14,478 nucleotides of DNA from Chloroflexota bacterium. Lineage in GTDB: Bacteria > Chloroflexota > Dehalococcoidia > GIF9 > AB-539-J10. Made by a program: the position numbers and the translations under genes. Positions within the stretch are counted from its first letter, which is position 1. Every line of letters starts with the position of its first letter. This document shows, one piece after another, positions 1,912 through 12,778 of the stretch. Under the pieces are notes generated by a model. It had not been told where the DNA came from and ran no database searches. It was given only the letters and a program-made list of their open reading frames with translations. The stretch spans positions 1-14,478 of the forward strand of contig JADFUX010000019.1 in the NCBI GenBank assembly GCA_015222255.1, written 5' to 3'.

Positions 1912-2247
1912 TTATCCACTACTTACCACCTTGCTAGCTGCCTCGTAGAATCTTTGCCATTCACCTAATCTGCCAGCTAGTATTTGGCGCCCCTTCTCAG
2001 TTATTTCGTAGCATCGTCGCTTTTGCCTCTGAGCAACTTGCTGCCATGAGCTCAAGACAAGCCCTTCACCCTCTAGCCTACGCAATGCCGAATATATTGT
2101 GCTGCTCGCAAGCCTAAAGTAACCTTCACTTCTTTCCTCAAGCTCCTTAATAATTTGGTATCCGTACATAGGCAATTCAGCGATAAGCGAAAGCATCAGA
2201 GGCCCTATCGCTCCCCTCAGTAGCTGCTGCCCGTAAGCTTCAGACAT
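1912..2247 (-). CDS. PadR-family transcriptional regulator
   Basis: A small winged-helix DNA-binding repressor of the PadR family, 111 residues from the chosen start. The family core is clear: MYGYQIIKELEERSEGYF, then STIYSALRRLEGEGLV (recognition helix and wing) and KRRCYEITEKGRQIL. A short C-terminal helix (EWQRFYEAASK) would serve dimerisation, as in the short PadR subgroup. I chose ATG at 2247 over the in-frame GTG at 2253 because a TGC-TAAAGT -10 element ends at 2257, so transcription should begin near 2250, after the GTG. It is divergent from the HtrA-type protease gene and may control it, itself, or the decayed sequence downstream. Its ligand is unknown. Confidence 0.88.
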   Translation of the reverse strand: MSEAYGQQLLRGAIGPLMLSLIAELPMYGYQIIKELEERSEGYFRLASSTIYSALRRLEGEGLVLSSWQQVAQRQKRRCYEITEKGRQILAGRLGEWQRFYEAASKVVSSG

Positions 2248-2256
2248 TGCCACATT

Positions 2257-2285
2257 ACTTTAGCACTTATGGCGAACCCAGTCAC
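2257..2285 (-). promoter_or_regulatory. Predicted padR promoter (extended -10)
   Basis: On the minus strand, GTGACT (2285-2280; 4 of 6 matches to the -35 consensus) is 17 bp from TAAAGT (2262-2257), which is preceded by TGC as an extended -10. Only 9 bases separate it from the ATG at 2247, giving a leader of about 0-3 bases. The hexamers are weak on their own; support comes from the same layout at the other gene heads in the window. Confidence 0.4.
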
Positions 2286-2327
2286 TTCAATACGAGCTCT
2301 CAGAGCAGAACTCCTCCACAACTGGTA

Positions 2328-2336
2328 TGATATAAT
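2328..2336 (+). promoter_or_regulatory. Predicted htrA promoter (extended -10, TGA-TATAAT)
   Basis: A perfect TATAAT (2331-2336) preceded by TGA forms a consensus extended -10. No convincing -35 hexamer is present at 16-18 bp. The predicted start of transcription is near 2343, giving a leader of about 9 bases with no Shine-Dalgarno sequence before the ATG at 2352. A small palindrome, GCTCT-C-AGAGC (2296-2306), lies just upstream and is a possible operator. Confidence 0.6.
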
Positions 2337-2351
2337 TTCCTAACCAATAGA

Positions 2352-3455
2352 ATGCTACAGACGATCAAATATGGCCTTATCGCTCTGATATTGTTAGCCC
2401 TGATTTTGGGGGCGGCCGGCTGCTCCACGCTACTACCGTGGTTGACCACTCCGCCAGAGTCTGGCGACTCAATTGAGCCCGCTAATCCCGATTGGACATT
2501 CCCAGCACAGGACAGCCAGCCACCTACACCCCTGCCTGATTTCGCTAATGTTGTGGCAAGAGTGAAACCCGCGGTAGTCTCGGTAGCCACCGAGAGGATT
2601 TACCATGATATTTTCGACCGTAGATACTTTGAGAAGAGTGCCGGCTCTGGGGTGATTATCGATGTTGAAGGATATATCGTCACCAACAATCACGTAGTCG
2701 AAGATGCTGTCAACATGGAGGTGAAGCTAAATGACGGCAGAACTTGCCCAGCTACTCTAGCAGGCACTGATAGCCTAAGCGACCTAGCAGTAATCAAGAT
2801 TGAGGCCGGAGATTTGGCTTATGCTCAACTTGGCGATTCATCCAGCCTACGCGAAGGCGACTGGGTGCTGGCCATAGGCAATGCGTTTGGCTTGGGGCTT
2901 AGGGTAAGCGAGGGCATTGTGAGCGGCCTGGACATAGAGATCACTCTATCCTCAGGAGCCGAGCTACGCAACCTTATCGAAACCACCGCCGCCATTAATC
3001 CTGGCAATAGCGGCGGACCACTGGTAAACATGGCTGGTGAGGTTGTGGGCATCACCAGCGCTAAGATTATGGGTGCCGACAACATGGGCTACGCCCTAAG
3101 CATTGACAGTTCAAAACCTATCATCACAGATATTATCACCCAGGGCTACGTGATTCGCCCCTGGCTAGGAGTGCGGCTATACACTGTGGATACCTTCGTA
3201 GCTGCGGAAAACAGTCTTTCAGTTGACCAAGGAGTACTAGTTACAGATGTGGTTCCTGGTAGTCCCGCAGAGGCTGCTGGACTAAAGAAGGGGGATGTGA
3301 TTACCGGATTCCAGGACAAGGAAACAGTCAATGTTGACGACCTTATCCAGGCTATCCACAACTGTCAAATCGGCCAGGAAGCAAAGATAACCTTCGTTAG
3401 AGGAGAAGAGACCAAAACAACCTTCGCCACCTTGAGACAGACTCCCCCACCCTAG
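2352..3455 (+). CDS. HtrA/DegP-type serine protease with one PDZ domain, membrane-anchored or lipoprotein
   Basis: A 367-residue trypsin-fold protease for quality control of proteins outside the cytoplasm. A hydrophobic N-terminus (residues 8-23) ends in GAAGC, so Cys24 may be lipidated; otherwise this segment is an uncleaved anchor. A Pro-rich linker follows (32-62). The protease domain shows the triad in TNNHVV (H114), LSDLAVI (D144) and NPGNSGGPL (S220). A single C-terminal PDZ domain covers about 268-362, including GSPAEAAGLKKGDVI. The size and one-PDZ layout fit the HtrA/DegS/HhoA type rather than two-PDZ DegP. The ATG is supported by the signal sequence although no SD is present. The gene is divergent from padR and its stop overlaps the ileS stop. 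Confidence 0.93.
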   Translation: MLQTIKYGLIALILLALILGAAGCSTLLPWLTTPPESGDSIEPANPDWTFPAQDSQPPTPLPDFANVVARVKPAVVSVATERIYHDIFDRRYFEKSAGSGVIIDVEGYIVTNNHVVEDAVNMEVKLNDGRTCPATLAGTDSLSDLAVIKIEAGDLAYAQLGDSSSLREGDWVLAIGNAFGLGLRVSEGIVSGLDIEITLSSGAELRNLIETTAAINPGNSGGPLVNMAGEVVGITSAKIMGADNMGYALSIDSSKPIITDIITQGYVIRPWLGVRLYTVDTFVAAENSLSVDQGVLVTDVVPGSPAEAAGLKKGDVITGFQDKETVNVDDLIQAIHNCQIGQEAKITFVRGEETKTTFATLRQTPPP

Positions 3456-6400
3456 CAAAGCTTAACTCCAAAAACGACCTCGCACTGCGAGATACGGAGC
3501 TTCTCCGTGTAAGCCTCTTTGGGTGGAACACCATCGACAAGCTCTTGAGACAGCGTCTCCTGTTTGATGTAGTCGGCAAAATCAACCATCGCTTGCTTGA
3601 CTGGCTCTTTTGCCTGATAATAGGTAACAATGCGGTCAGCAATATCAAAATTGGCAGCACGCCGCATATTCTGAAGACGACGTACAATTTCCCTGCTCAT
3701 TCCTTCCGCAATCAACTGCGGTGTCAACTCGGTGCTTGTAGCCACCCAATGTCTGGCATCACTGGCCACGCTATAGGCAGACGACACTTCTGGGGGAGAT
3801 TCTTCCCTGGAGAACTCTACCTGCTTAACATTTATTTCTTCCAGTATCTGGGCAGTTAGCCTGCCTAGGGTTTCCTCCTCCTCTTCAGATTCCACCTTGA
3901 TCACAGCTTTCCCTAAAGGCTGACGCACCTTGATCCCGGCACTGGCCCTTGCTGCCCTGCCTAAGCTTGAGACCTTCATGGCTAGCGCAATATCTCTGCT
4001 TAATTTGTCAACGATTTTATCCTCATCTGCTGTAGGAAAATCAGTCAGATGAACACTCACCTTCGCCTTAGAATCTACAGAACGAACCAGGTTTTGATAA
4101 AGCTCCTCCGCAATGAACGGGGTGAATGGGGCCAAGAGTCGAGACACGGTAACCAGGCACTGATATAGTGTGTTATAGGCTGCCAATTTATCCGCATCCT
4201 CCTCGCTTTTCCAAAATCGCCGCCGGCTTCGCCTTACATACCAGTTGGAGAGATCATGCACAAAACTCCCGATTTGCCGCGCTGCCAAAGTAGGATTGTA
4301 ATTGTCCAACGACTTAGTTACCTCTGCTATCAGCCGATTGAGCTCCGAGATAATCCAGTTATCAAGCTCAGAAAGAGACACAGATCCCGATGGCTGGGGA
4401 ATAAAATGATCGATATTGGCATAAATGGTGAAGAAGGAATACGTGTTCCACAAAGTGGACAGGAAATCTCGCATTGTTCGGGCGACTTCTGCCGTAGCGA
4501 AGCGATGAACATTTTCCCCAGGCACCGAAGCTAACATATACCACCTCAGGGCATCAGCGCCATAATCATTAATCACTGTCCATGGGTCGATTACATTGCC
4601 CTTGGACTTGCTCATCTTCTCTCCGCAGGCATCGACAACGTGTCCCAAGCAGATAACGTTCTTAAAGCAAGGCTGGTCGAAGAGCAAAGTAGATATAGCG
4701 TGCAAGCTATAGAACCAGCCTCTGGTTTGATCAACAGCTTCACAAACAAAGTCAGCGGGAAAGTTCTGCTCAAACTTGTCCCCATTTTCAAAAGGATAAT
4801 GCCACTGCCCTATGGGCATAGCCCCCGAATCAAACCAGCAATCAATTACCTCAGGAACACGTCGCATCTCACCACCACACTTGGAGCAAGCAAAGGTAAT
4901 TCCATCCACATAAGGGCGATGCAAATCGACAAGGGTGTCACCTCCGTAGAGACTTGGCTTCGCTCTTAGTTCAGCAATGCTACCCACGCATTCAAGATTG
5001 CCACACGATCCACAACTCCAGATATTGAGTGGCGTCCCCCAATAGCGTTCTCGGGAAAAAGCCCAATCAACATTGTTTTCCAGCCAATCGCCAAACCGAC
5101 CATCCTTGATATAAGCAGGATACCAGTTTATTTCACCATTTCCGGCAATAAGCGTGTCTTTCACCGCCGTTGTCTTGATATACCAGGCTTGCTTAGCGTA
5201 ATAGAGAAGGGGCGCGCCACAACGCCAGCAAAATGGATAAGTATGGGTAATCCTTTCACTGCGGTAAAGCAATCCCCTCGATTTGAGGTCTTTGAGAATG
5301 AGAGGGTCAGCATCCTTGACAAAGTTGCCCTCAAAGCTGGGATCGCCTCTCATAATGCCTTGCTCATCCACGGGTTGGACAAAATAAAGCCCTTGGGAAC
5401 AACCTGCTCTATAATCCACTTCACCGAAAGCTGGAGCGACATGCACGATTCCTGTGCCCTCGTCTAGGGATACAAAGTCCTCTGCAATGAGCCCAAAATT
5501 CTCACCTTTGCTGGGGCTCTCCCGCACTAAGCCGCCAGGTCCACCAGCCTCCGCACCAACAAACACAAATCCCAATCTACTGTACAGTTGACCGGGCAGC
5601 CGATACAGGGGCTCATATTCCGTCCCTTTCCCTTGTAGTCGCTCCCCCACAAGTTCTTTGCCTTTGCAGATGCCCAGAACTTCATATTCCCCAATTAGCG
5701 CCCTTCCCAGGAGAGCCTCAGCCAAGATCAGTTGTTCGCCCCCACTGTCCATGCTGACCTTAACAAAGGCATAATCGGCCTCGGGAGCCACTGCCAAGGC
5801 AGTGTTGCCCGGCAACGTCCACGGCGTAGTTGTCCAGGCGAGGAGATAGGTTGGCAATCTTCGGTCAGCACCTAACTTGCTCAGATGTCCACTGACGCCT
5901 TCTTCTGGCACGCTAAACTTCACATAAACCGAAGGATCCTCGGTATCATCCCTATACCCCAGCGCCACCTCGTGAGAACTGAGGGAGGTACCACATCTAG
6001 GACAATGTGGCGTTACCTTATAGCCCTGATAAACCCAATCTTTGTCCCATATCCTTTTTAGGGCCCACCAGCAAGATTCGATATAGTCGTTGTCCAAAGT
6101 TGTGTAAGGATGCTCCATATCCAACCAGCAACCAGTGCGCTCAGTAAGGTCCTCCCATTCCTTGATGTACCTGAAGACACTCTCCCGGCAAAGCTGGTTG
6201 AAGCGGGCTATGCCGTATTTCTCAATTTGCGCTTTGCTGCTAATGCCAAGGGCGCTCTCCACCTCTAGCTCTACAGGCAATCCGTGAGTATCCCATCCTG
6301 CCTTACGCGGCACATGATAACCTTTCATCGTCTTGTACCGACAAATAACATCCTTGAAGAGGCGAGACAGCACATGATGAATCCCGGGACTGCCATTAGC

Positions 6401-6547
6401 CGTAGGCGGACCTTCATAAAAAGTGTAATGCTGTCCTCCTCGCCTTTCCTCCACGCTTTCGCCAAAAACATCATGCTCCTTCCAAAAACGCAGGATATCC
6501 TGTTCCATGCGAGGAAAATCTATCTTGCTACCTACTTTTCGAAACAC
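3452..6547 (-). CDS. ileS: Isoleucyl-tRNA synthetase, eukaryote-like (type 2)
   Basis: This 1031-residue class Ia synthetase attaches isoleucine to tRNA-Ile. The HIGH signature appears as PGIHH (54-58) after GPPTANG, followed by GWDTHGLPVE, and the second signature is KMSKS (644-648). The CP1 editing domain carries the Thr-rich WTTTPW (238-243). The C-terminal anticodon-binding part includes IKVRQPLGKA, typical of the longer eukaryote-like group. That group is known to be less sensitive to mupirocin than type 1 enzymes. The start is GTG at 6547; AAGGGG lies 7 bases upstream and overlaps the end of jag, whose stop is 3 bases away, so translation is probably coupled. It is the last gene of the long minus-strand block. 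No T-box leader is present. Confidence 0.97.
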   Translation of the reverse strand: MFRKVGSKIDFPRMEQDILRFWKEHDVFGESVEERRGGQHYTFYEGPPTANGSPGIHHVLSRLFKDVICRYKTMKGYHVPRKAGWDTHGLPVELEVESALGISSKAQIEKYGIARFNQLCRESVFRYIKEWEDLTERTGCWLDMEHPYTTLDNDYIESCWWALKRIWDKDWVYQGYKVTPHCPRCGTSLSSHEVALGYRDDTEDPSVYVKFSVPEEGVSGHLSKLGADRRLPTYLLAWTTTPWTLPGNTALAVAPEADYAFVKVSMDSGGEQLILAEALLGRALIGEYEVLGICKGKELVGERLQGKGTEYEPLYRLPGQLYSRLGFVFVGAEAGGPGGLVRESPSKGENFGLIAEDFVSLDEGTGIVHVAPAFGEVDYRAGCSQGLYFVQPVDEQGIMRGDPSFEGNFVKDADPLILKDLKSRGLLYRSERITHTYPFCWRCGAPLLYYAKQAWYIKTTAVKDTLIAGNGEINWYPAYIKDGRFGDWLENNVDWAFSRERYWGTPLNIWSCGSCGNLECVGSIAELRAKPSLYGGDTLVDLHRPYVDGITFACSKCGGEMRRVPEVIDCWFDSGAMPIGQWHYPFENGDKFEQNFPADFVCEAVDQTRGWFYSLHAISTLLFDQPCFKNVICLGHVVDACGEKMSKSKGNVIDPWTVINDYGADALRWYMLASVPGENVHRFATAEVARTMRDFLSTLWNTYSFFTIYANIDHFIPQPSGSVSLSELDNWIISELNRLIAEVTKSLDNYNPTLAARQIGSFVHDLSNWYVRRSRRRFWKSEEDADKLAAYNTLYQCLVTVSRLLAPFTPFIAEELYQNLVRSVDSKAKVSVHLTDFPTADEDKIVDKLSRDIALAMKVSSLGRAARASAGIKVRQPLGKAVIKVESEEEEETLGRLTAQILEEINVKQVEFSREESPPEVSSAYSVASDARHWVATSTELTPQLIAEGMSREIVRRLQNMRRAANFDIADRIVTYYQAKEPVKQAMVDFADYIKQETLSQELVDGVPPKEAYTEKLRISQCEVVFGVKLC
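3479..3508 (+). terminator. Tandem hairpins just past the htrA stop, inside the 3' end of ileS
   Basis: Two perfect small stems follow the htrA stop: CTCGC-ACT-GCGAG (3479-3491) and ACGGAG-CTT-CTCCGT (3494-3508). They lie within the ileS coding region because the convergent genes leave no intergenic space. No T-run follows. They could help end the htrA transcript, or be chance structure within coding sequence. Confidence 0.25.
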
Positions 6548-6550
6548 GAG

Positions 6551-7180
6551 CTAGCCCCTTTTGAGTAAGATGACTACCTTTCTGCTTTCACCCTCGCCAA
6601 TGCTATGGGTGGTGACGTCGGGGTGATTGGCTAAGGTCAGATGAATGATGCGGCGTTCGTCAGGCATCATTGGCTCCAGGGTTATGACACGACGTCTCAT
6701 TTTTACTTCATCGGCTAAATTCAAAGCTAATTTTCGCAAATTCTCACAGTGCTGCTTCTTGTATCCAGCAACGTCAACCACCAACGGCAACCAGGCTTTC
6801 AATCGCCCTGCTACTATGAGCCTGACAATGTACTGTAACGAAGCCAAGGTCTGACCCCGCCGACCAATCAGGATGCCAAGATCATCGCCCTCAATATTCA
6901 GAGTTACTGGTATCTCAGAGGACGCTTCAACCCTACCCGCTACACCCATTAATCTCACTAATGTATCTACAACCTCTGTAGCTACCTTAACCACATCTTG
7001 CTCTAGGGAAGCTACCGGTTTCACTTTAATTACGGCCTCTTTGCCCCCGATGCCGAGAATTCCTGTCTTACCCTTTCTGACAACAACCACCTCAAATTGG
7101 TCGCGGCTTGCTCCTAGTTGCCTTTCCGCCTCCTCAATCGCTTCTTGCACCGTCCCAGCGCTTATCTCCAACTCTTCCAT
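6551..7180 (-). CDS. jag: Jag/KhpB RNA-binding protein (Jag-N, KH, R3H)
   Basis: A 209-residue RNA-binding protein of the SpoIIIJ-associated (Jag, KhpB/EloR) family. The Jag N-terminal domain covers residues 1-52, including KTGILGIGGKEA. A KH domain has the GRRG loop (106-109) in GILIGRRGQTLASLQY, and the R3H domain has the R-x3-H pair R176 and H180 (RRIIH). In Gram-positive bacteria KhpB binds mRNA with KhpA and affects cell elongation; the exact role here is unknown. A strong SD (AAAGGAGG) stands about 10 bases before the ATG. The gene follows yidC by 29 bases, the usual order. The family's linker between the first two domains is short here. Confidence 0.95.
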   Translation of the reverse strand: MEELEISAGTVQEAIEEAERQLGASRDQFEVVVVRKGKTGILGIGGKEAVIKVKPVASLEQDVVKVATEVVDTLVRLMGVAGRVEASSEIPVTLNIEGDDLGILIGRRGQTLASLQYIVRLIVAGRLKAWLPLVVDVAGYKKQHCENLRKLALNLADEVKMRRRVITLEPMMPDERRIIHLTLANHPDVTTHSIGEGESRKVVILLKRG

Positions 7181-7209
7181 GCTCTAACCCCTCCTTTCTA
7201 CCAATCCCC

Positions 7210-8001
7210 TTACCCCTTTCTGCTCTGTCGCCCACTCTTTGTCGCTGACTTGCTTCCATGCACCGGCGCCAATTCAGTCGAAGGCTTTGGCCTCAAGTAA
7301 CCCCAGCCTGTGACGAAATACTGAATCACAATGCCAATGACATTCGAAACTGCCCAAAAAAGAGCCAGGCCACTGGGAAACATCAACGTGAATACAGCAA
7401 ACATAAGCGGCATCATCATCTGCATCATCCTGTTCATGGATTGCTGTCTTGGGTCAGGAGAGGGCCCTGTCACCATTTTCTGCTGTACCCACATGGTGCC
7501 ACCAACTATGACAGCCAGAATCAAGGTAGAGTCGGGATATCCTAAGTTAAGCCATAGGAATTGACTGCCGCAAGGAATTGCCTGGGTTACCACCGGCCAG
7601 GAATAGAGGTGCTGAGATAAGTCCAGTAGACTGTCAGGTGTAGTGGCTAAGGCCCTCATTATGGATTGATATAGAGCAATCCACACGGGGAACTGAACCA
7701 GCATGGGCCATAAGCAACCCAAGGGGTTCACTCCAGCCTCTGCATAAAGCTTCTTCATTTCCTGCTGAAGCTTCTGCTGACTCTTACCGTATTTCTTTTG
7801 CAACTCCTGAATCTTTGGTTGCATCCCCTGCAATGCCTTGGTGGCTTTAAGCTGCTTTAGCGTAAGAGGCAAGAGCGCCAAACGAACAATTACGGTGAGG
7901 GCAATAATGGCTAGCCCGAAATTACCCCATAGAACGCTGCTCAAGGCAATCAGCACATTGAGCACAGGATTGAGAACAATCAGACTCCATGGATCTGTCA
8001 T
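7210..8001 (-). CDS. yidC: YidC/Oxa1-family membrane protein insertase
   Basis: A 263-residue insertase that places membrane proteins in the bilayer, with or without SecYEG. The conserved groove arginine is R40 in VRLALLPLT. A long charged cytoplasmic hairpin follows (about 48-90, rich in Lys and Gln), then the membrane segments, including GCLWPMLVQFPVWIALYQS and FPSGLALFWAVSN. The C-terminal tail is basic (SKSATKSGRQSRKG), as expected for ribosome contact. It lacks the large periplasmic domain of Gram-negative YidC and has no lipobox; the N-terminus goes straight into the first membrane segment. The ATG lies 12 bases after the stop of the propeller gene and has only a weak SD. Confidence 0.95.
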   Translation of the reverse strand: MTDPWSLIVLNPVLNVLIALSSVLWGNFGLAIIALTVIVRLALLPLTLKQLKATKALQGMQPKIQELQKKYGKSQQKLQQEMKKLYAEAGVNPLGCLWPMLVQFPVWIALYQSIMRALATTPDSLLDLSQHLYSWPVVTQAIPCGSQFLWLNLGYPDSTLILAVIVGGTMWVQQKMVTGPSPDPRQQSMNRMMQMMMPLMFAVFTLMFPSGLALFWAVSNVIGIVIQYFVTGWGYLRPKPSTELAPVHGSKSATKSGRQSRKG

Positions 8002-8012
8002 AACGGCAAACC

Positions 8013-9203
8013 TTACTCAGTAGTCAAGGCAAATTCCCAGATTATTCTCCCTCTTTCAACATCGAGAGCGTATAGACGGTCATTCTGGGCACGAATATAA
8101 GCTGTGCCTCCTTGGGCACAAATAGACCCTCGAATGGGAGCGTCAACGGATACTGGACCGCTTGCTAGCCTTTCATCAACAACAGTGTCAGTTCTCAGTA
8201 TGTATACTTCGCCTGAGTCACACGCCACCACCAGCAAATCACCCACCAGCACCGGCGAAGCCACAATTTGACTTGCAGTGTCAAACTCCCACAGTTCATC
8301 ACCCGTCTCGGCATCGAGAGCGTAAATCTTGCCGTCGAAGCAGCCGGCATAGACTACTCCCTCATCAATCACAGGAGCCGCCCAAAACCAGTTGCCACCG
8401 GCAAATTTCCACGTTGCCTCACTTTCCCCCACTCTTACGCCATAAACGTTGCGATCAAAGGAGCCCACAAATACCATATCGTCGCGAAGCACTGGGGACG
8501 AAACGAAACCTGCATCCCCTTTAAAGGCCCACGATGGCTCAACGTCATTGCCCAGCGAAGCTCCTTCGGTTGGGAGGCCGTAAACATAATCCTCGAATGT
8601 GCTTACGTAGATAGTGTCCCCCTCGATTGCTGGCCCCGTCCATAGTTTGTCGTCCAAAGGCCCGGATTTCCACCTCACATCGCCGTAGATTGCATCTAAG
8701 CCATATACCCTGCCATCTGAACTGGGCACGTACAAAGTATTCCCATCTATCACCGGTTGGCCTACTATATTTCCTGGTAAGGGACAAACCCACTCATCAC
8801 TCCCTCTCTGAGGGAATGTTAGATTCTGACTTCTCGCTGAGGGGCTCATCGCCAAGACGTCGCCACTATAAGTACCGACATAGACCAGATCCTCACCCAC
8901 AACCGGCGCACCGTAAAAGGCAGCCGCCACTGACGATGGGCCACAAGACACACCACCGCCTGCGGGGACCTCAATCCTGAAATACCATTCCCCGTCTGCT
9001 AGAGAAGGAAAAGCTAGCCCATCGAGCCTAGCTGAGGAGTTCAGGGCCATTACACTGCCATCGCCAGCGGCAGTATAGAGGAGTCCGTTGTGCGAGCTAA
9101 CTCCGGGCCATCCCTCTGCTTCCCCTGCCGAGGGAATACAGCTACACAGAAACAGAACGAAAAGCGTAAGAGTAATAAAAGGGGCTAATCTCTCAATCTT
9201 CAC
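8013..9203 (-). CDS. Eight-repeat PQQ-like beta-propeller lipoprotein
   Basis: A 396-residue exported protein. The N-terminus has a signal peptide with LCSC, so Cys22 is the likely lipidation site. Eight PQQ-like repeats can be counted from their Y-V/A-x-x-x-D-G-x-V-Y-A-L strands, near residues 42, 107, 157, 198, 243, 284, 323 and 368. This suggests a closed eight-bladed propeller, as in BamB. The clearest repeat is VYAGCFDGKIYAL followed by DAETGDELWEF. The first two repeats share an extra SARxxxLxFPxxxxxEW insert. No catalytic site is visible; PQQ-repeat folds often act as scaffolds. It lies 11 bases upstream of yidC and 21 bases after yidD, which hints at a role in protein insertion or folding at the outer membrane face. 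The start is GTG with no good SD. Function is unknown. Confidence 0.85.
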   Translation of the reverse strand: MKIERLAPFITLTLFVLFLCSCIPSAGEAEGWPGVSSHNGLLYTAAGDGSVMALNSSARLDGLAFPSLADGEWYFRIEVPAGGGVSCGPSSVAAAFYGAPVVGEDLVYVGTYSGDVLAMSPSARSQNLTFPQRGSDEWVCPLPGNIVGQPVIDGNTLYVPSSDGRVYGLDAIYGDVRWKSGPLDDKLWTGPAIEGDTIYVSTFEDYVYGLPTEGASLGNDVEPSWAFKGDAGFVSSPVLRDDMVFVGSFDRNVYGVRVGESEATWKFAGGNWFWAAPVIDEGVVYAGCFDGKIYALDAETGDELWEFDTASQIVASPVLVGDLLVVACDSGEVYILRTDTVVDERLASGPVSVDAPIRGSICAQGGTAYIRAQNDRLYALDVERGRIIWEFALTTE

Positions 9204-9224
9204 TTCAACAGACTAAATCTAGAA

Positions 9225-9434
9225 CTAAGGTACAGGGTCGTAACCACCTTTAGAGAAGGGATTGCAGCGAGACAATCGCTTAACCGCCAGCCAACTGCCC
9301 CGGACAAGGCCATGTTTCTCAATCGCTTCATAGGCATAATGTGAACAACTAGGCCGGAAACGACAGGAATGGGGAGTTACTTCCGATATTGTTATCTGGT
9401 ATGACTTAATTAAGTCTAACACTAACTGCTTCAT
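9225..9434 (-). CDS. yidD: YidD, membrane protein insertion efficiency factor
   Basis: A 69-residue protein with the complete YidD signature: CRFRPSCSHYAYEAIEKHG with Cys24 and Cys30, then LAVKRLSRCNPF with Cys57, and the terminal GGYDPVP. In E. coli YidD is found at the inner membrane and helps YidC-dependent insertion. The short N-terminal amphipathic stretch is the usual membrane contact. The ATG at 9434 lies inside rnpA, a 29-base overlap, which is common for this pair. No strong SD is present, so translation probably depends on rnpA. Confidence 0.96.
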   Translation of the reverse strand: MKQLVLDLIKSYQITISEVTPHSCRFRPSCSHYAYEAIEKHGLVRGSWLAVKRLSRCNPFSKGGYDPVP

Positions 9435-9765
9435 TCCTGCACAGCAGTTGCGCCTTAGCCAATAGCTTGGTTATTGCGTCCTCAAGTTGGTGATAATCAG
9501 CAGAAGCGGCTCCAGAGCGGGGGATAAAGACTATGTCCCACCCCACCTTCACCGACTGAAGAGAAACTACTTCTCTGAGCAAGCGTTTGACCCGATTACG
9601 CTGCACTGCCTTACCTAGTTTCTTTGTCACCGAAAAACCATATCTGGTAGAACCCAAGCCATTACGCATTGCTTTCATCACCACCAAACCACCCGCCCAC
9701 ACTGTACCCTGCTGGTAGACCAAGGTATATTCGCTTCTCTTTGTTACTCTCAGAGACCTTTCCAT
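9406..9765 (-). CDS. rnpA: RNase P protein component
   Basis: The 119-residue protein subunit of RNase P, which assists the RNA enzyme in cutting 5' leaders from pre-tRNAs. The RNR motif is in GKAVQRNRVKRLLRE (R56-R58), preceded by the RYGFSVTKKLG strand. The length is typical. The ATG comes 8 bases after the rpmH stop and no SD directly precedes it; a purine-rich GGGAGGTGGAGG lies about 25 bases away inside rpmH. An in-frame TGA just upstream rules out a longer ATG, GTG or TTG start. Translation is probably coupled to rpmH. Confidence 0.95.
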   Translation of the reverse strand: MERSLRVTKRSEYTLVYQQGTVWAGGLVVMKAMRNGLGSTRYGFSVTKKLGKAVQRNRVKRLLREVVSLQSVKVGWDIVFIPRSGAASADYHQLEDAITKLLAKAQLLCRNEAVSVRLN

Positions 9766-9772
9766 AAAGGAA

Positions 9773-9913
9773 CTATACAGGGGTCAACCTCCACCTCCCT
9801 TTAAGACGCCTCGCCTTCAGAACCCCCCTCCCACCGGCAGTAGCCATCCTGGCTCGGAACCCGAGCTTACGCTTGCGAGAAAGTTTCTTGGGTTGATAAG
9901 TGCGCTTTGGCAT
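9773..9913 (-). CDS. rpmH: 50S ribosomal protein L34
   Basis: A 46-residue, strongly basic protein of the large subunit. It begins [16 protein letters not shown], continues [15 protein letters not shown] and ends [13 protein letters not shown], which matches the L34 pattern throughout. It is too short for most ORF cut-offs. The ATG at 9913 has AAGGA about 6 bases upstream. It lies 19 bases after rpsR and 7 bases before rnpA. The rpmH-rnpA pair is nearly universal, but the upstream neighbour here is rpsR and not dnaA. Confidence 0.96.
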
Positions 9914-9932
9914 TTGTTTCCTTAAGGCCCCA

Positions 9933-10205
9933 CTACTTTAAGCCTACCCCACCAGTCTTCCAAATATGACTTGGCGCGTAAGGCAGCAAAGCCAGAAACC
10001 GGGCTCTCTTTATGGCCCGTGCCAGACGCCGCTGATGCTTGGCGCAGGCACTGGTTCTCCTTCGTGACTCAATCTTACCACGACTCGAAATATAGCGGCT
10101 CAACTTGGATGGATCTTTGTAGTCTATCCTAGCCCCTCTTTCGACACAAAAGGGGCAAGCCCTCCGCTTACGAACGAACATTCTTCCCCCTGTTTCTCCA
10201 CTCAT
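9933..10205 (-). CDS. rpsR: 30S ribosomal protein S18, zinc-binding form
   Basis: A small-subunit protein that pairs with S6 on the platform. The S18 core is clear: [39 protein letters not shown] and LALLPY. Cys17, Cys20, Cys54 and His57 form a likely zinc site (the C+ form). I chose ATG at 10205 (90 residues), with AGAAGG upstream and 19 bases after ssb. A longer reading from TTG at 10232 would overlap the ssb stop and add an unusual basic leader. A shorter start at ATG 10181, with GGGGGA before it, is also possible. Confidence 0.94.
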
Positions 10206-10224
10206 TGATTTCAACCTTCTAACT

Positions 10225-10611
10225 CTAATCAAAGGGCAAATCTTCAGGCTCTAAGTCTCCCTCCTCAGGGATAGCAGCCAAAGCCCTGCCAAGAAAAAGC
10301 ACACGATCGGCAGTTACTTCAAGGCTAGTACGCATCTGCCCATCTTGTCCCTCCCAGTTGCGAGCGTGCAATCTCCCCTCGACGTAAACTTGCTTCCCTT
10401 TGGACAAGAATTGATTGCAACTCTCAGCTTGTTTGCCCCAAACGGTAATTCTAAACCAGTCTGTTTCTTCTCTGCTCTCCCCAGCAGAAGTAGCATAACG
10501 ACGATTAGTAGCCATACGAAAAGAGGTAACCGATTTGCCATCAGGTGTGAACCTCATCTCAGGATCAGAACCTAAATTGCCGATAAGCATTACTTTGCTC
10601 AAGCTTGCCAT
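10225..10611 (-). CDS. ssb: Single-stranded DNA-binding protein
   Basis: A 128-residue SSB with an N-terminal OB fold (about 1-105): [20 protein letters not shown], then [15 protein letters not shown] and [10 protein letters not shown]. The linker is very short and leads to an acidic tail, [13 protein letters not shown]. The tail resembles the protein-docking tip (usually ending in -PF), but one Asp follows the Phe. The start lies 7 bases after rpsF, with GGGAG directly abutting the ATG and GAGG further back. The position between rpsF and rpsR is the usual one for bacterial ssb. Confidence 0.96.
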
Positions 10612-10618
10612 CTCCCGA

Positions 10619-10906
10619 TCAATCCTCCACTCTTATTACGAGATGCCGCAGAATCTCTTCCGAACCTCCCAGGCTTGTGTCAAGCTCTTTGATCAGCTTT
10701 GGCTCGAGCCTGAATCGAGTGAGAACGTAATTGCCTTCCACAAACTTCTTCACAGGGTAGGCTAGTTTTCTCTTCCCCCACTGACTTACCTCATCCACTA
10801 TGCCACCCTTGTCGCTAATAGACTTACCCAGCTTGTCCATGATATTGGACAACCCTTCCCCGTCTACTTCAGGATCAATTATTGTCACCACCTCATAGGA
10901 GCGCAT
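10619..10906 (-). CDS. rpsF: 30S ribosomal protein S6
   Basis: A 95-residue small-subunit protein that binds the platform with S18. It begins MRSYEVVTIIDPEVD and contains WGKRKLAYPVKKFVEGNYVL and EEILRHLVIRVED, all diagnostic for S6. There is no long acidic C-terminal tail. The ATG is 8 bases from a consensus extended -10, so the mRNA from that promoter would be leaderless. In many bacteria S6-S18 represses its own operon through a structured leader; there is no room for one here unless transcription starts further upstream. Confidence 0.96.
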   Translation of the reverse strand: MRSYEVVTIIDPEVDGEGLSNIMDKLGKSISDKGGIVDEVSQWGKRKLAYPVKKFVEGNYVLTRFRLEPKLIKELDTSLGGSEEILRHLVIRVED

Positions 10907-10914
10907 CGGCAGCT

Positions 10915-10923
10915 ATTATAACA
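10915..10923 (-). promoter_or_regulatory. Predicted rpsF promoter (extended -10, TGT-TATAAT)
   Basis: On the minus strand, TGT then TATAAT (10923-10915) makes a consensus extended -10. The -35 region is poor: TTGCTT lies at a 15-bp spacing. The box ends 8 bases before the rpsF ATG, so the predicted transcript starts at or within about 2 bases of the ATG. The element fits the 43-base gap after the metallophosphoesterase gene. Confidence 0.6.
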
Positions 10924-10949
10924 TGACCAAGGAAAAAGCAATAGCCCAG

Positions 10950-11684
10950 CTAGTAACCATAACTTAAGCGAAGAATCAATGACAAAGGCAATTGGCACTC
11001 CATCATCCTACTTTGAGTAACAGCAATATCATAGTCCACACGATAATGATAGATAGTTTGGGCGCTGCTATCGTAAACCGCATAGCTGGCTCTGGGATCG
11101 CCATCCCGAGGTTGCCCCACACCTCCAGGGTTAATAATCAAGCGGTCACTGTCGCTTGCCACGTTAACCTTATCGCTTAATCTCCCAAGAATACATTGAC
11201 CCGCTTTGTCACGCCGAAAAACCAGCGGAACATGAGAGTGGCCTACGAGACAGAATTTTGTGTCAAAACAGGCAAAATTGTCACGAGCATCAACTGCCGA
11301 CAACAGATATTCCCAGATAGGTTCACGGGGGCTGCCATGAACTAAGGTAAAATCAGCTCGCTCTAGCTGAAGGGGAAGGCCCCGCAACCAGTCCATGTCC
11401 CCAACGCCAAGTTGCTGCGCTGTCCACTGGCAAGCCCGAGCAGCATCGGGGTTGAAATCCAGAGTGTCAATTTTGCCAATAGCTGCCCAATCATGGTTGC
11501 CAGCGACACAAATATAATTCTGGCTCAGTAACAGCTCGATGCAAGCATGAGGCTCGGGGCCATAACCCACTATATCTCCTAAGCACCATATCTCATCAAA
11601 TCCCCCCTTAGCTTCCAGGTCTTCAAGCACAGCCTTGAAGGCAGCCAAGTTAGCGTGAATATCACTGACAAGGGCATAACGCAC
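10950..11684 (-). CDS. Calcineurin-like metallophosphoesterase (YfcE/MJ0936-like)
   Basis: A 244-residue cytoplasmic metallophosphoesterase with all metal ligands visible: SDIH (D8, H10), GDIVGYGP (D37), GNHD (N63, H64), VHGSPR (H116) and GHSHVP (H149, H151). This pattern is that of the small bacterial and archaeal phosphodiesterases related to YfcE and MJ0936, which cleave model phosphodiesters; the natural substrate is unknown. The start is GTG, supported by the family pattern MRYALVSDIHANL and by a promoter that leaves no SD. It is divergent from thiL and sits 43 bases before rpsF, so it may contribute read-through into the ribosomal genes. Confidence 0.92.
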   Translation of the reverse strand: MRYALVSDIHANLAAFKAVLEDLEAKGGFDEIWCLGDIVGYGPEPHACIELLLSQNYICVAGNHDWAAIGKIDTLDFNPDAARACQWTAQQLGVGDMDWLRGLPLQLERADFTLVHGSPREPIWEYLLSAVDARDNFACFDTKFCLVGHSHVPLVFRRDKAGQCILGRLSDKVNVASDSDRLIINPGGVGQPRDGDPRASYAVYDSSAQTIYHYRVDYDIAVTQSRMMECQLPLSLILRLSYGY

Positions 11685-11692
11685 AGCAAGAA

Positions 11693-11721
11693 ACTATAGC
11701 ACCCACAAGCCAGATTGTTAA
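11693..11721 (-). promoter_or_regulatory. Predicted metallophosphoesterase promoter
   Basis: On the minus strand, TTAACA (11721-11716; 5 of 6 to consensus) is exactly 17 bp from TATAGT (11698-11693; 5 of 6), and TGC precedes the -10 as an extended element. The GTG start lies 8 bases downstream, so the mRNA should be leaderless. Its -35 box is one base pair from the -35 box of the divergent thiL promoter. Confidence 0.7.
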
Positions 11722-11722
11722 C

Positions 11723-11751
11723 TTGAGGGGGACAGAAGTGAGTGCTATAAT
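11723..11751 (+). promoter_or_regulatory. Predicted thiL promoter
   Basis: TTGAGG (11723-11728; 4 of 6 to consensus) is 17 bp from a perfect TATAAT (11746-11751), preceded by TGC as an extended -10. The thiL ATG at 11759 is 7 bases downstream, giving a leaderless transcript. Confidence 0.7.
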
Positions 11752-11758
11752 CCCAAGA

Positions 11759-12778
11759 ATGGATTTGTCCGAGCTAGGGGAATTCGGCTTAATCGACCTG
11801 ATTCATACCATCACGGAAAGATTGAAGGATCCTGAGCATCCTTCCTGGCAGCGACTCTTGATAGGCATCGGCGATGACACTGCCGCCTGGCAAAGTAATG
11901 GGCAAACCCAATTGGCCACCACAGACACTCTGGTCCAGAATGTGCACTTTGACCTCAAGGACATCACGTGGGAGGAATTAGGCTGGAAGGCACTGGCTAT
12001 CAATCTAAGCGACATTGCCGCCATGGGTGGTATCCCTCAATACGCTTTGGTTTCCCTCGCATTGCCTGGTGCACTTGAAGTAGAAAATATCTGCGAATTC
12101 TATGACGGCATGGCACGTCTGGCCAATGAATTTGGCGTAGCCATAGTTGGTGGCAATATCGCTGTCGCTCCCAACGTGGTCATTACCGTCGCTCTCCTAG
12201 GATCTGCAAGAAACGAAAAGATGCTCAGGCGCTCATCAGCCACGCCCGGAGAACAAATAGCTGTCACGGGATATCTGGGGTTGTCAGCAGCATGTTTGAT
12301 GATGCTGAAGGAAAGAACCAGTCTGGATGCTGAAACAATTAAGATTTTGAGACAGGGGCATTTTCGGCCTGTGCCTAGAGTAAGAGAGGGACAGGTCCTG
12401 GTGGACCAAGGCATCAAGACAGCCATAGACATAAGTGATGGACTCATTGCCGATCTTGGTCACATATGTGAGGCCAGTGAAGTCAGTGCCGAAGTAAGGA
12501 TAGAGCAAGTGCCTATCCACCCTCTGGTGAAAGCCAATTTCCAAAACTACCAACAGCTAGCTCTCGGCGGCGGAGAAGACTATGAACTGCTTTTCACCGC
12601 TAACAAAGCCGACATTGAACGAGTCAGACAGACCATACACTATCCCATAACCATAATTGGCAACATAACCCAAGAAGGATTGCCAGATCGAGTGACTTTA
12701 CTAGATGCTAAGGGGAACATCACAGGTTATGAGAAAGGCGGTTGGGAACACTTCAAAGACGGAGCGGTTGAAGCTTAG
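11759..12778 (+). CDS. thiL: Thiamine-phosphate kinase
   Basis: ThiL phosphorylates thiamine phosphate to thiamine diphosphate with ATP, the last step of cofactor synthesis. The 339-residue protein starts MDLSELGEFGLIDLI, the usual ThiL N-terminus. It then has GIGDDTAAW (GIGDD 36-40), TTDTLVQNVHF (54-64), DISDGLIADLGHI and GGGEDYELLFT, all characteristic of this PurM-like fold. A reading 12 codons longer from TTG 11723 is possible, but those bases form the promoter, so ATG 11759 is the better start. No thiamine biosynthesis genes are adjacent. The end overlaps tsaE by 11 bases. Confidence 0.96.
   Translation: MDLSELGEFGLIDLIHTITERLKDPEHPSWQRLLIGIGDDTAAWQSNGQTQLATTDTLVQNVHFDLKDITWEELGWKALAINLSDIAAMGGIPQYALVSLALPGALEVENICEFYDGMARLANEFGVAIVGGNIAVAPNVVITVALLGSARNEKMLRRSSATPGEQIAVTGYLGLSAACLMMLKERTSLDAETIKILRQGHFRPVPRVREGQVLVDQGIKTAIDISDGLIADLGHICEASEVSAEVRIEQVPIHPLVKANFQNYQQLALGGGEDYELLFTANKADIERVRQTIHYPITIIGNITQEGLPDRVTLLDAKGNITGYEKGGWEHFKDGAVEA

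Follow-up and report, generated by a model that had tools for sequence, protein, structure and literature searches.

Leaderless genes with a TAtaaT signal have been predicted in 4 of 12 Chloroflexi genomes, where they amount to 4.0–5.7% of genes (Zheng et al. 2011, PMC3160421); the same study argues that distal operon genes need a Shine-Dalgarno (SD) site and, for Actinobacteria and Streptococcaceae, measured how SD and TA signals replace one another. In Deinococcus, −10 boxes beside open reading frames (ORFs) have been mutated and act as promoters of leaderless mRNA, the distance to the start being required (PMC12340547), and in mycobacteria a 5′-terminal ATG or GTG suffices for initiation, the leaderless structure being kept in 71 of 97 expressed orthologues (PMC4633059). 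We analyzed −10 boxes lying close to the start codons of 5 genes (padR, htrA, rpsF, thiL, and a metallophosphoesterase gene, mpp) in a 14,478-nucleotide stretch of DNA from a Chloroflexota bacterium of the class Dehalococcoidia (JADFUX010000019.1, hereafter the window), which makes up contig 83 in full; the assembly has 827 kb and is 62% complete. Judging from the conserved layouts described below, leaderless initiation is very likely real in this genome, but as a minority mode.

Start-proximal −10 boxes at 5 gene heads

A previous sequence-only reading of the window had reported a TGn-extended −10 box at these 5 heads, 7–9 bp from the start at 4 of them and 15 bp at htrA, with no SD site. All 5 boxes were recovered, each with TGn directly upstream; the measured distances are 9, 8, 8, 7, and 15 bp for padR, rpsF, mpp, thiL, and htrA, respectively, and no SD site was found between box and start at any of the 5. 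The genes and promoter elements are as follows:

1912..2247, minus strand: padR, PadR-family regulator (PF03551, E 1.6e-23), divergent from htrA
2257..2262, minus strand: padR −10 box TAAAGT, TGC upstream, 9 bp before ATG 2247
2280..2285, minus strand: padR −35 candidate GTGACT, 17-bp spacer, two departures; the GTGACT-17 layout is also readable in locus L236
2331..2336, plus strand: htrA −10 box TATAAT, TGA upstream, 15 bp before ATG 2352; predicted leader of about 6–9 nt
2352..3455, plus strand: htrA-like protease, trypsin-like and PDZ domains (PF13365, PF13180), N-terminus of lipoprotein type by eye
10619..10906, minus strand: rpsF, ribosomal protein S6 (PF01250)
10915..10920, minus strand: rpsF −10 box TATAAT, TGT upstream, 8 bp before ATG 10906
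10950..11684, minus strand: mpp, calcineurin-like metallophosphoesterase (PF12850, PF00149), start GTG 11684
11693..11698, minus strand: mpp −10 box TATAGT, TGC upstream, 8 bp before GTG 11684
11716..11721, minus strand: mpp −35 TTAACA, 17-bp spacer, one departure, 1 bp from the thiL −35
11723..11728, plus strand: thiL −35 candidate TTGAGG, 17-bp spacer, two departures
11746..11751, plus strand: thiL −10 box TATAAT, TGC upstream, 7 bp before ATG 11759
11759..12778, plus strand: thiL-like gene, AIR-synthase fold (PF00586, PF02769)

The last gene we take to be thiL (thiamine-monophosphate kinase); the Pfam matches support an AIR-synthase-fold protein. Three of the boxes (htrA, rpsF, and thiL) are exact TATAAT, and that of padR departs twice. 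A −35-like hexamer at 17-bp spacing is good at mpp and fair at thiL and padR; no convincing −35 hexamer was found upstream of the htrA or rpsF boxes. With their −35 hexamers separated by a single base pair, mpp and thiL are arranged as a tightly packed divergent pair. The padR box is followed after 3 bp by an in-frame GTG (2253); the 9-bp figure depends on ATG 2247, a start picked by coding score alone and the point at which the proteins of relatives begin. TA-led leaderless genes have their box about 6–9 bp before the start, as do padR, rpsF, mpp, and thiL; htrA, at 15 bp, falls outside this range and was classed as a short-leader gene.

We consider it highly probable that the boxes are sigma-70-type promoters giving leaderless padR, rpsF, mpp, and thiL mRNAs and an htrA mRNA with a leader of about 6–9 nt, and that they represent a minority mode with 2 histories. 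The promoters would consist of the TGn-extended −10 box, joined at mpp, thiL, and padR by the −35-like hexamer 17 bp upstream. RNA polymerase would start about 6–9 nt past the −10 box, which would put +1 at the start codon or only a few bases from it; the 4 mRNAs would then be leaderless and that of htrA would carry its short leader. As no room would be left for an SD site, the ribosome would have to start at the 5′-terminal AUG or GUG, as is the case for leaderless mRNAs elsewhere in bacteria. SD sites would serve the internal genes and many of the remaining heads, the start-proximal layout being limited to roughly one-tenth of divergent heads. The 2 histories would be an old one at thiL and mpp, shared across the class or order, and another at dnaE, rpsF, and htrA, in which an older promoter came near the start within the window's family.

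Conservation of the thiL, mpp, and padR layouts

The thiL layout was followed in 2 sets with partly overlapping species: 27 Dehalococcoidia loci (set A) and 27 class genomes (set B; 30 loci, 28 examined and 27 counted without the window, with L284 and L293 excluded because the match begins inside the protein). The set A relatives are Dehalococcoidia or Chloroflexi metagenome-assembled genomes. Identity to the window protein is 45–73% in set A, with records named "Dehalococcoidales bacterium" at 48–52%, and 46–64% in set B. In set A, 26 of 27 loci have a box with at most 1 departure from TATAAT at 5–10 bp from the start, always with TGn, and 19 have it at exactly 7 bp; the box is the most conserved stretch of the upstream region. 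At the locus that misses (L173), GATAAT replaces the box at unchanged distance. In set B, the box lies at 5–10 bp in all 27 genomes (12 with TGn) and at 6–8 bp in 24. GGAG or GAGG occurs near the start in none of the 27 set A loci and in 3 of the 27 in set B. TTGAGG or TTGTGG is readable at the −35 position in some relatives (not counted).

For mpp, 21 relatives were counted with starts taken from the match coordinates, and 19 have a box 5–10 bp before the start (13 TATAGT and 6 TATAAT), 4 of these 19 together with an exact TTAACA at a 17-bp spacer; GGAG or GAGG was found near the start in 0 of 21. Of the 2 misses, L197 does carry TATAGT, placed 8 bp ahead of an ATG that precedes the aligned position by one codon; L189 lacks a clear box. 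Matches of mpp beside rpsF came in pieces only, mostly with internal stops (G007, contig C90, 18032–18685; G012, C96, 3334–3537; G004, C1, 15209–15394), and were excluded from the count. The mpp tree does not resolve branching within the window's family. The thiL and mpp layouts extend across the class or order.

The padR comparison covered 18 of 30 loci (17 without the window). A TGn box with at most 2 departures, 5–11 bp before the start, coincides with the absence of GGAG/GAGG in 12 of 13 same-family loci; in the 13th and all 4 other-family loci this box is missing and GGAG or GAGG is present. The more distant padR loci may be paralogues.

The predicted starts are conserved at the protein level: for all 27 thiL loci the tblastn alignment runs from residue 1 of the window protein, for all 21 counted mpp loci the match runs from residue 1 or 2, and a caller using only coding score and start codon chose the same 5 starts in the window.

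Boxes near the start only within the window's family

At dnaE, all 18 same-family genomes examined have a TGn box 6–9 bp from the start, versus 0 of 10 outside the family (G008 of the same family, and G079 and G066 of the same order, stand outside the count). The exact pattern TGNTATAAT-N(6–9)-ATG occurs at the very start of the dnaE match in 12 same-family genomes, including the window's own, and a near box is also present in the same-family genomes G004, G032, G002, G009, G030, and G052. In the 10 other-family relatives within the order, TGn TATAAT lies at 16–39 bp from the start and GGAG/GAGG is absent throughout; these genes look like a third state, leadered and SD-less. In the outgroup G073, the TGn box stands at 18 bp, and a weaker TATACT lacking TGn precedes an upstream GTG by 10 bp. 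For 9 of the 10 other-family proteins (among loci L295–L308), MFTHLHVH or MFIHLHVH is the actual or a possible N-terminus; dnaE in the window's family begins a few codons before this, next to the box. At recA, the box stands 7 bp from the start in the window's genome and is also found in the genus-mate G001, as judged by a divergent match beside dnaE; among 20 class members, a TGn box at 5–10 bp is present in 1 (G121) and, only when 2 departures are allowed, in G008, with GGAG/GAGG in 9.

A −10 box precedes rpsF in 20 of 20 genomes, at 6–8 bp in 3 (8 in the window's genome, 7 in G010, and 6 in G009, whose TAAAAT without TGn is the poorest of the near boxes), at 15 bp in 2, and at 26–39 bp in 15, including all 8 outside the family. 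Those 8 all have an SD-like site (GGAG/GAGG in 5, AAGG in 3). An Rfam search of the window and 6 rpsF loci returned 1 tRNA and no leader element. For htrA, 22 of 30 loci were examined and 20 counted (L206 excluded): the box was found at 8–17 bp in 11 of 14 same-family relatives, with none found in 3, and in all 6 other-family relatives, at 27–39 bp in 5 and at 15 bp in 1.

The simplest reading of these distributions is that dnaE, rpsF, htrA, and recA had leadered promoters and then lost leader length; we infer the direction from the state in the other families, which is not a reconstruction. Tentatively, and with more doubt than confidence, leaderless initiation may have been gained in this family by loss of the 5′ leader, falling on replication and repair genes (dnaE family-wide, recA in the genus, and, in the window's genome, a box-proximal uvrA and a short-leader PcrA-type helicase gene). 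If true, bacterial leaderless genes would be partly derived and functionally selected, for example so that repair enzymes are translated when leadered initiation is impaired, rather than ancestral remnants.

Distribution of near boxes in the window's genome and its relatives

At 16 window starts, TGn boxes at 7–9 bp (TGn plus TA..T, at most 2 departures) number 4 against 0.025 expected (P ~1e-8; first-order Markov model of the genome's own upstream regions, 200,000 draws, per-start probability 0.0016), a figure to be read knowing that the window was picked after the pattern had been seen, that the starts were hand-listed without rpmH and tsaE, and that the rpsR start is 3 bases off. As the window was chosen in this way, independent data weigh more.

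Such data came from a sample of the same genome comprising 433,819 bases in 61 of 114 contigs, the window included, in which genes were called by codon usage alone, with a codon model trained against the other frames. Of the 372 called genes, 17 were dropped for an unusable upstream region, leaving 355. A TA-box at 5–10 bp precedes 8 of 60 divergent heads, 6 of 134 co-directional genes with a gap, 2 of 46 contig-edge genes, and 2 of 115 internal genes. The boxes are concentrated at operon heads (heads versus internal genes, p 0.003), also without the window (6/56 versus 2/111, p 0.018). A further 7 of the 60 divergent heads have the box at 11–16 bp, the class of htrA. Overall, 18 of 355 genes (5.1%, chance included) have a box at 5–10 bp, about twice the mean of the other 6-bp bins (8.2).

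When TGn is required and the range widened to 5–16 bp, 15 of 355 genes qualify. Four lie in the window (htrA, rpsF, mpp, and thiL; the padR box exceeds the departures allowed by the filter), and the others encode a YifB-type ATPase, a Xer-type recombinase, metallo-beta-lactamase-type and CinA/PncC-type proteins, GatB, prephenate dehydrogenase, UvrA, Dxr (called internal), a PcrA-type helicase, DnaE, and RecA. Five of the 15 (recombinase, uvrA, helicase, dnaE, and recA) concern replication, recombination, or repair, a count without a background rate in which dnaE and recA both come from C87, a contig chosen in knowledge of its hits; this share is a lead only. The metallo-beta-lactamase-type and CinA/PncC-type genes form a second divergent pair built like mpp/thiL (L025, 3786–5121); the two lie 61 bp apart and have boxes at 6 and 13 bp, respectively.

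In 84 genomes of the order, TGNTATAAT-N-ATG occurs 764 times at 6–9 bp, 621 times at 26–29 bp, and 510 times at 56–59 bp, with corresponding counts of 463, 296, and 284 in the window's family (52 genomes), 282, 312, and 214 in the neighboring family f2 (30 genomes), and 13, 2, and 3 in the window's genus (2 genomes). These counts are descriptive, as they are not gene-anchored and the long spacings include real promoters. The window's family favors the short spacing, which f2 does not, in agreement with the histories of dnaE and rpsF. A reversed-pattern control and the 26–29 bp class were judged poor nulls, the latter because it holds real leadered promoters; the 56–59 bp class, added as a null, is itself not free of dnaE genes that have their box near the start and a second ATG farther in. 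Profiling exact TGNTATAAT boxes by their distance from the start in sampled relatives gave data too sparse for use.

Shine-Dalgarno sites and neighboring genes

The sequence-only reading had contrasted the boxed heads with genes lying within or after others. Clear contrast cases are as follows:

7190..7197, minus strand: jag SD site AAAGGAGG
9918..9923, minus strand: rpmH SD-like AAGGAA
14023..14028, plus strand: SD site AGGAGG of a thioesterase gene (PF03061)

These AGGAGG/AAGGA-type sites bear the contrast out for jag, rpmH, and the thioesterase gene. Read by eye, the internal PQQ-repeat gene, yidD, and tsaB show no clear SD site and yidC a weak one at best, so the contrast between heads and internal genes is only partial. 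In the genome sample, GGAG/GAGG lies near the start of 19 of 60 divergent heads and 51 of 115 internal genes; together with the box counts, this indicates that both modes occur at heads and that many starts show neither. Some of the latter will be wrongly called starts. The earlier generalization, leaderless for first genes, is right in that boxes are enriched at heads, and overstated in that a GGAG/GAGG site is present at 19 of the 60 heads and a 5–10 bp box at only 18 of 355 genes.

On the minus strand of the window (3452–10906), what we take to be an rpmH-rnpA-yidD-yidC-jag cluster, named partly from the earlier reading, directly follows rpsF-ssb-rpsR, with ileS next; a PQQ/BamB-like beta-propeller gene (8013–9203) sits between yidD and yidC. 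About 450 bases (1456–1911) between a TrpB-like gene and padR hold no called gene.

Weighing the explanations

Predicted leaderless transcription from near-start −10 boxes is well supported at thiL, mpp, and padR and likely at rpsF, on the strength of the conserved box-to-start layout and the conserved protein N-terminus; htrA more likely gives a very short-leader mRNA. The high probability that we give to leaderless initiation derives mainly from the conservation at thiL, mpp, and dnaE.

Several observations weigh against it. The layout is known here from sequence, and a box 7–9 bp upstream would also fit a 1–3 nt leader. Without the window and the contigs C87 and C103, added to the sample in knowledge of their pattern hits, the contrast in the window's genome is weak (heads 5/50 versus internal 2/107, p 0.034; with TGn required, 4/50 versus 1/107, p 0.036). 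The genome-wide enrichment check proposed by the sequence-only reading came out in the expected direction (p 0.003 in the full sample), if only weakly. In 4 other genome samples, the comparison points the same way and is not significant in any (4/52 versus 1/69 in G009, 2/26 versus 0/43 in G053, 3/48 versus 0/56 in G020, and 1/48 versus 0/45 in G017); with TGn required, heads fall to 0/52, 1/26, 0/48, and 0/48, respectively, and the contrast is nearly gone. Family f2 has no excess at 6–9 over 26–29 bp (282 versus 312). Finally, 2 Chloroflexi species have a negative mean on an axis tied to leaderless or S1-type starts (PMC5397173) and the anti-SD CCUCCUU is given for Dehalococcoidia (PMC10783764), which together lead one to expect SD initiation to be common in this class. 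A literature search that included parts of PMC7062800, most subscription papers being outside its scope, found no mapped transcription starts for this lineage.

The alternative closest to the data is that transcription begins 1–5 nt before the start codon (6–9 nt for htrA) and that the short-leader mRNAs are translated by SD-independent leadered initiation. The 7–9 bp distances leave 0–3 nt of play, htrA itself stands at 15 bp, with 8–17 bp in the 11 of 14 same-family relatives that have a box, and 7 of the 60 divergent heads lie at 11–16 bp; yet the thiL distance is commonest at 7 bp (19/27 in set A) and lies at 6–8 bp in 24/27 of set B, a clustering expected if +1 must coincide with the start codon, and we judge a short leader at all of these genes to be improbable. 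That the promoters are real and the annotated starts too far upstream, with translation from a later codon behind an ordinary leader, draws on the fact that start codons in metagenome assemblies are predictions only, but alignments running from residue 1 (thiL) or residue 1 or 2 (mpp) and the agreement of the caller on all 5 starts make it very improbable. We give hardly any credence to the boxes being chance AT-rich matches with the true promoters elsewhere: −10-like hexamers are common, and the 18 genes, at only twice the bin mean of 8.2, may include a good part of chance, but the 4 boxes at 16 window starts against 0.025 expected, and the conservation of both box and distance, speak against chance.

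Comparison with known systems

The layout lends support to the start-codon and promoter assignments of several core genes in a large class that is mostly uncultured, and thiL, mpp, and dnaE make a short list with a predicted leaderless layout conserved enough for testing in a cultivated relative. Where the same promoter has a leader in one family but stands next to the start in the sister family, the gain or loss of leaders becomes datable and testable at the level of clades.

The leaderless use that the sequence-only reading proposed for this lineage is supported at thiL, mpp, and padR, and probably at rpsF, but is not new to the phylum (PMC3160421). The TA-led genes of that study resemble those described here in their TAtaaT-type box, about 10–12 bp before the translation start there, and in their share of genes, the raw 18 of 355 here (5.1%, chance included) being close to 4.0–5.7%. 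They differ in that the sections consulted report no gene-level conservation within Chloroflexi and interpret leaderless genes chiefly as remnants of an ancestral state, whereas here leaders appear to have been lost at dnaE, rpsF, and htrA inside a single family. Deinococcus-Thermus shares the −10 element directly before the ORF, but as TANNNT and at about 30% of ORFs, compared with the fuller TGnTATAAT at a few per cent of genes here (PMC12340547). In mycobacteria, leaderless structure is likewise conserved between orthologues and coexists with SD-led genes; there it concerns nearly a quarter of transcripts and was established with 5′ ends and ribosome profiling, in contrast to the sequence comparisons used here (PMC4633059). 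The layout in the window is a new, well-conserved instance of the known leaderless type.

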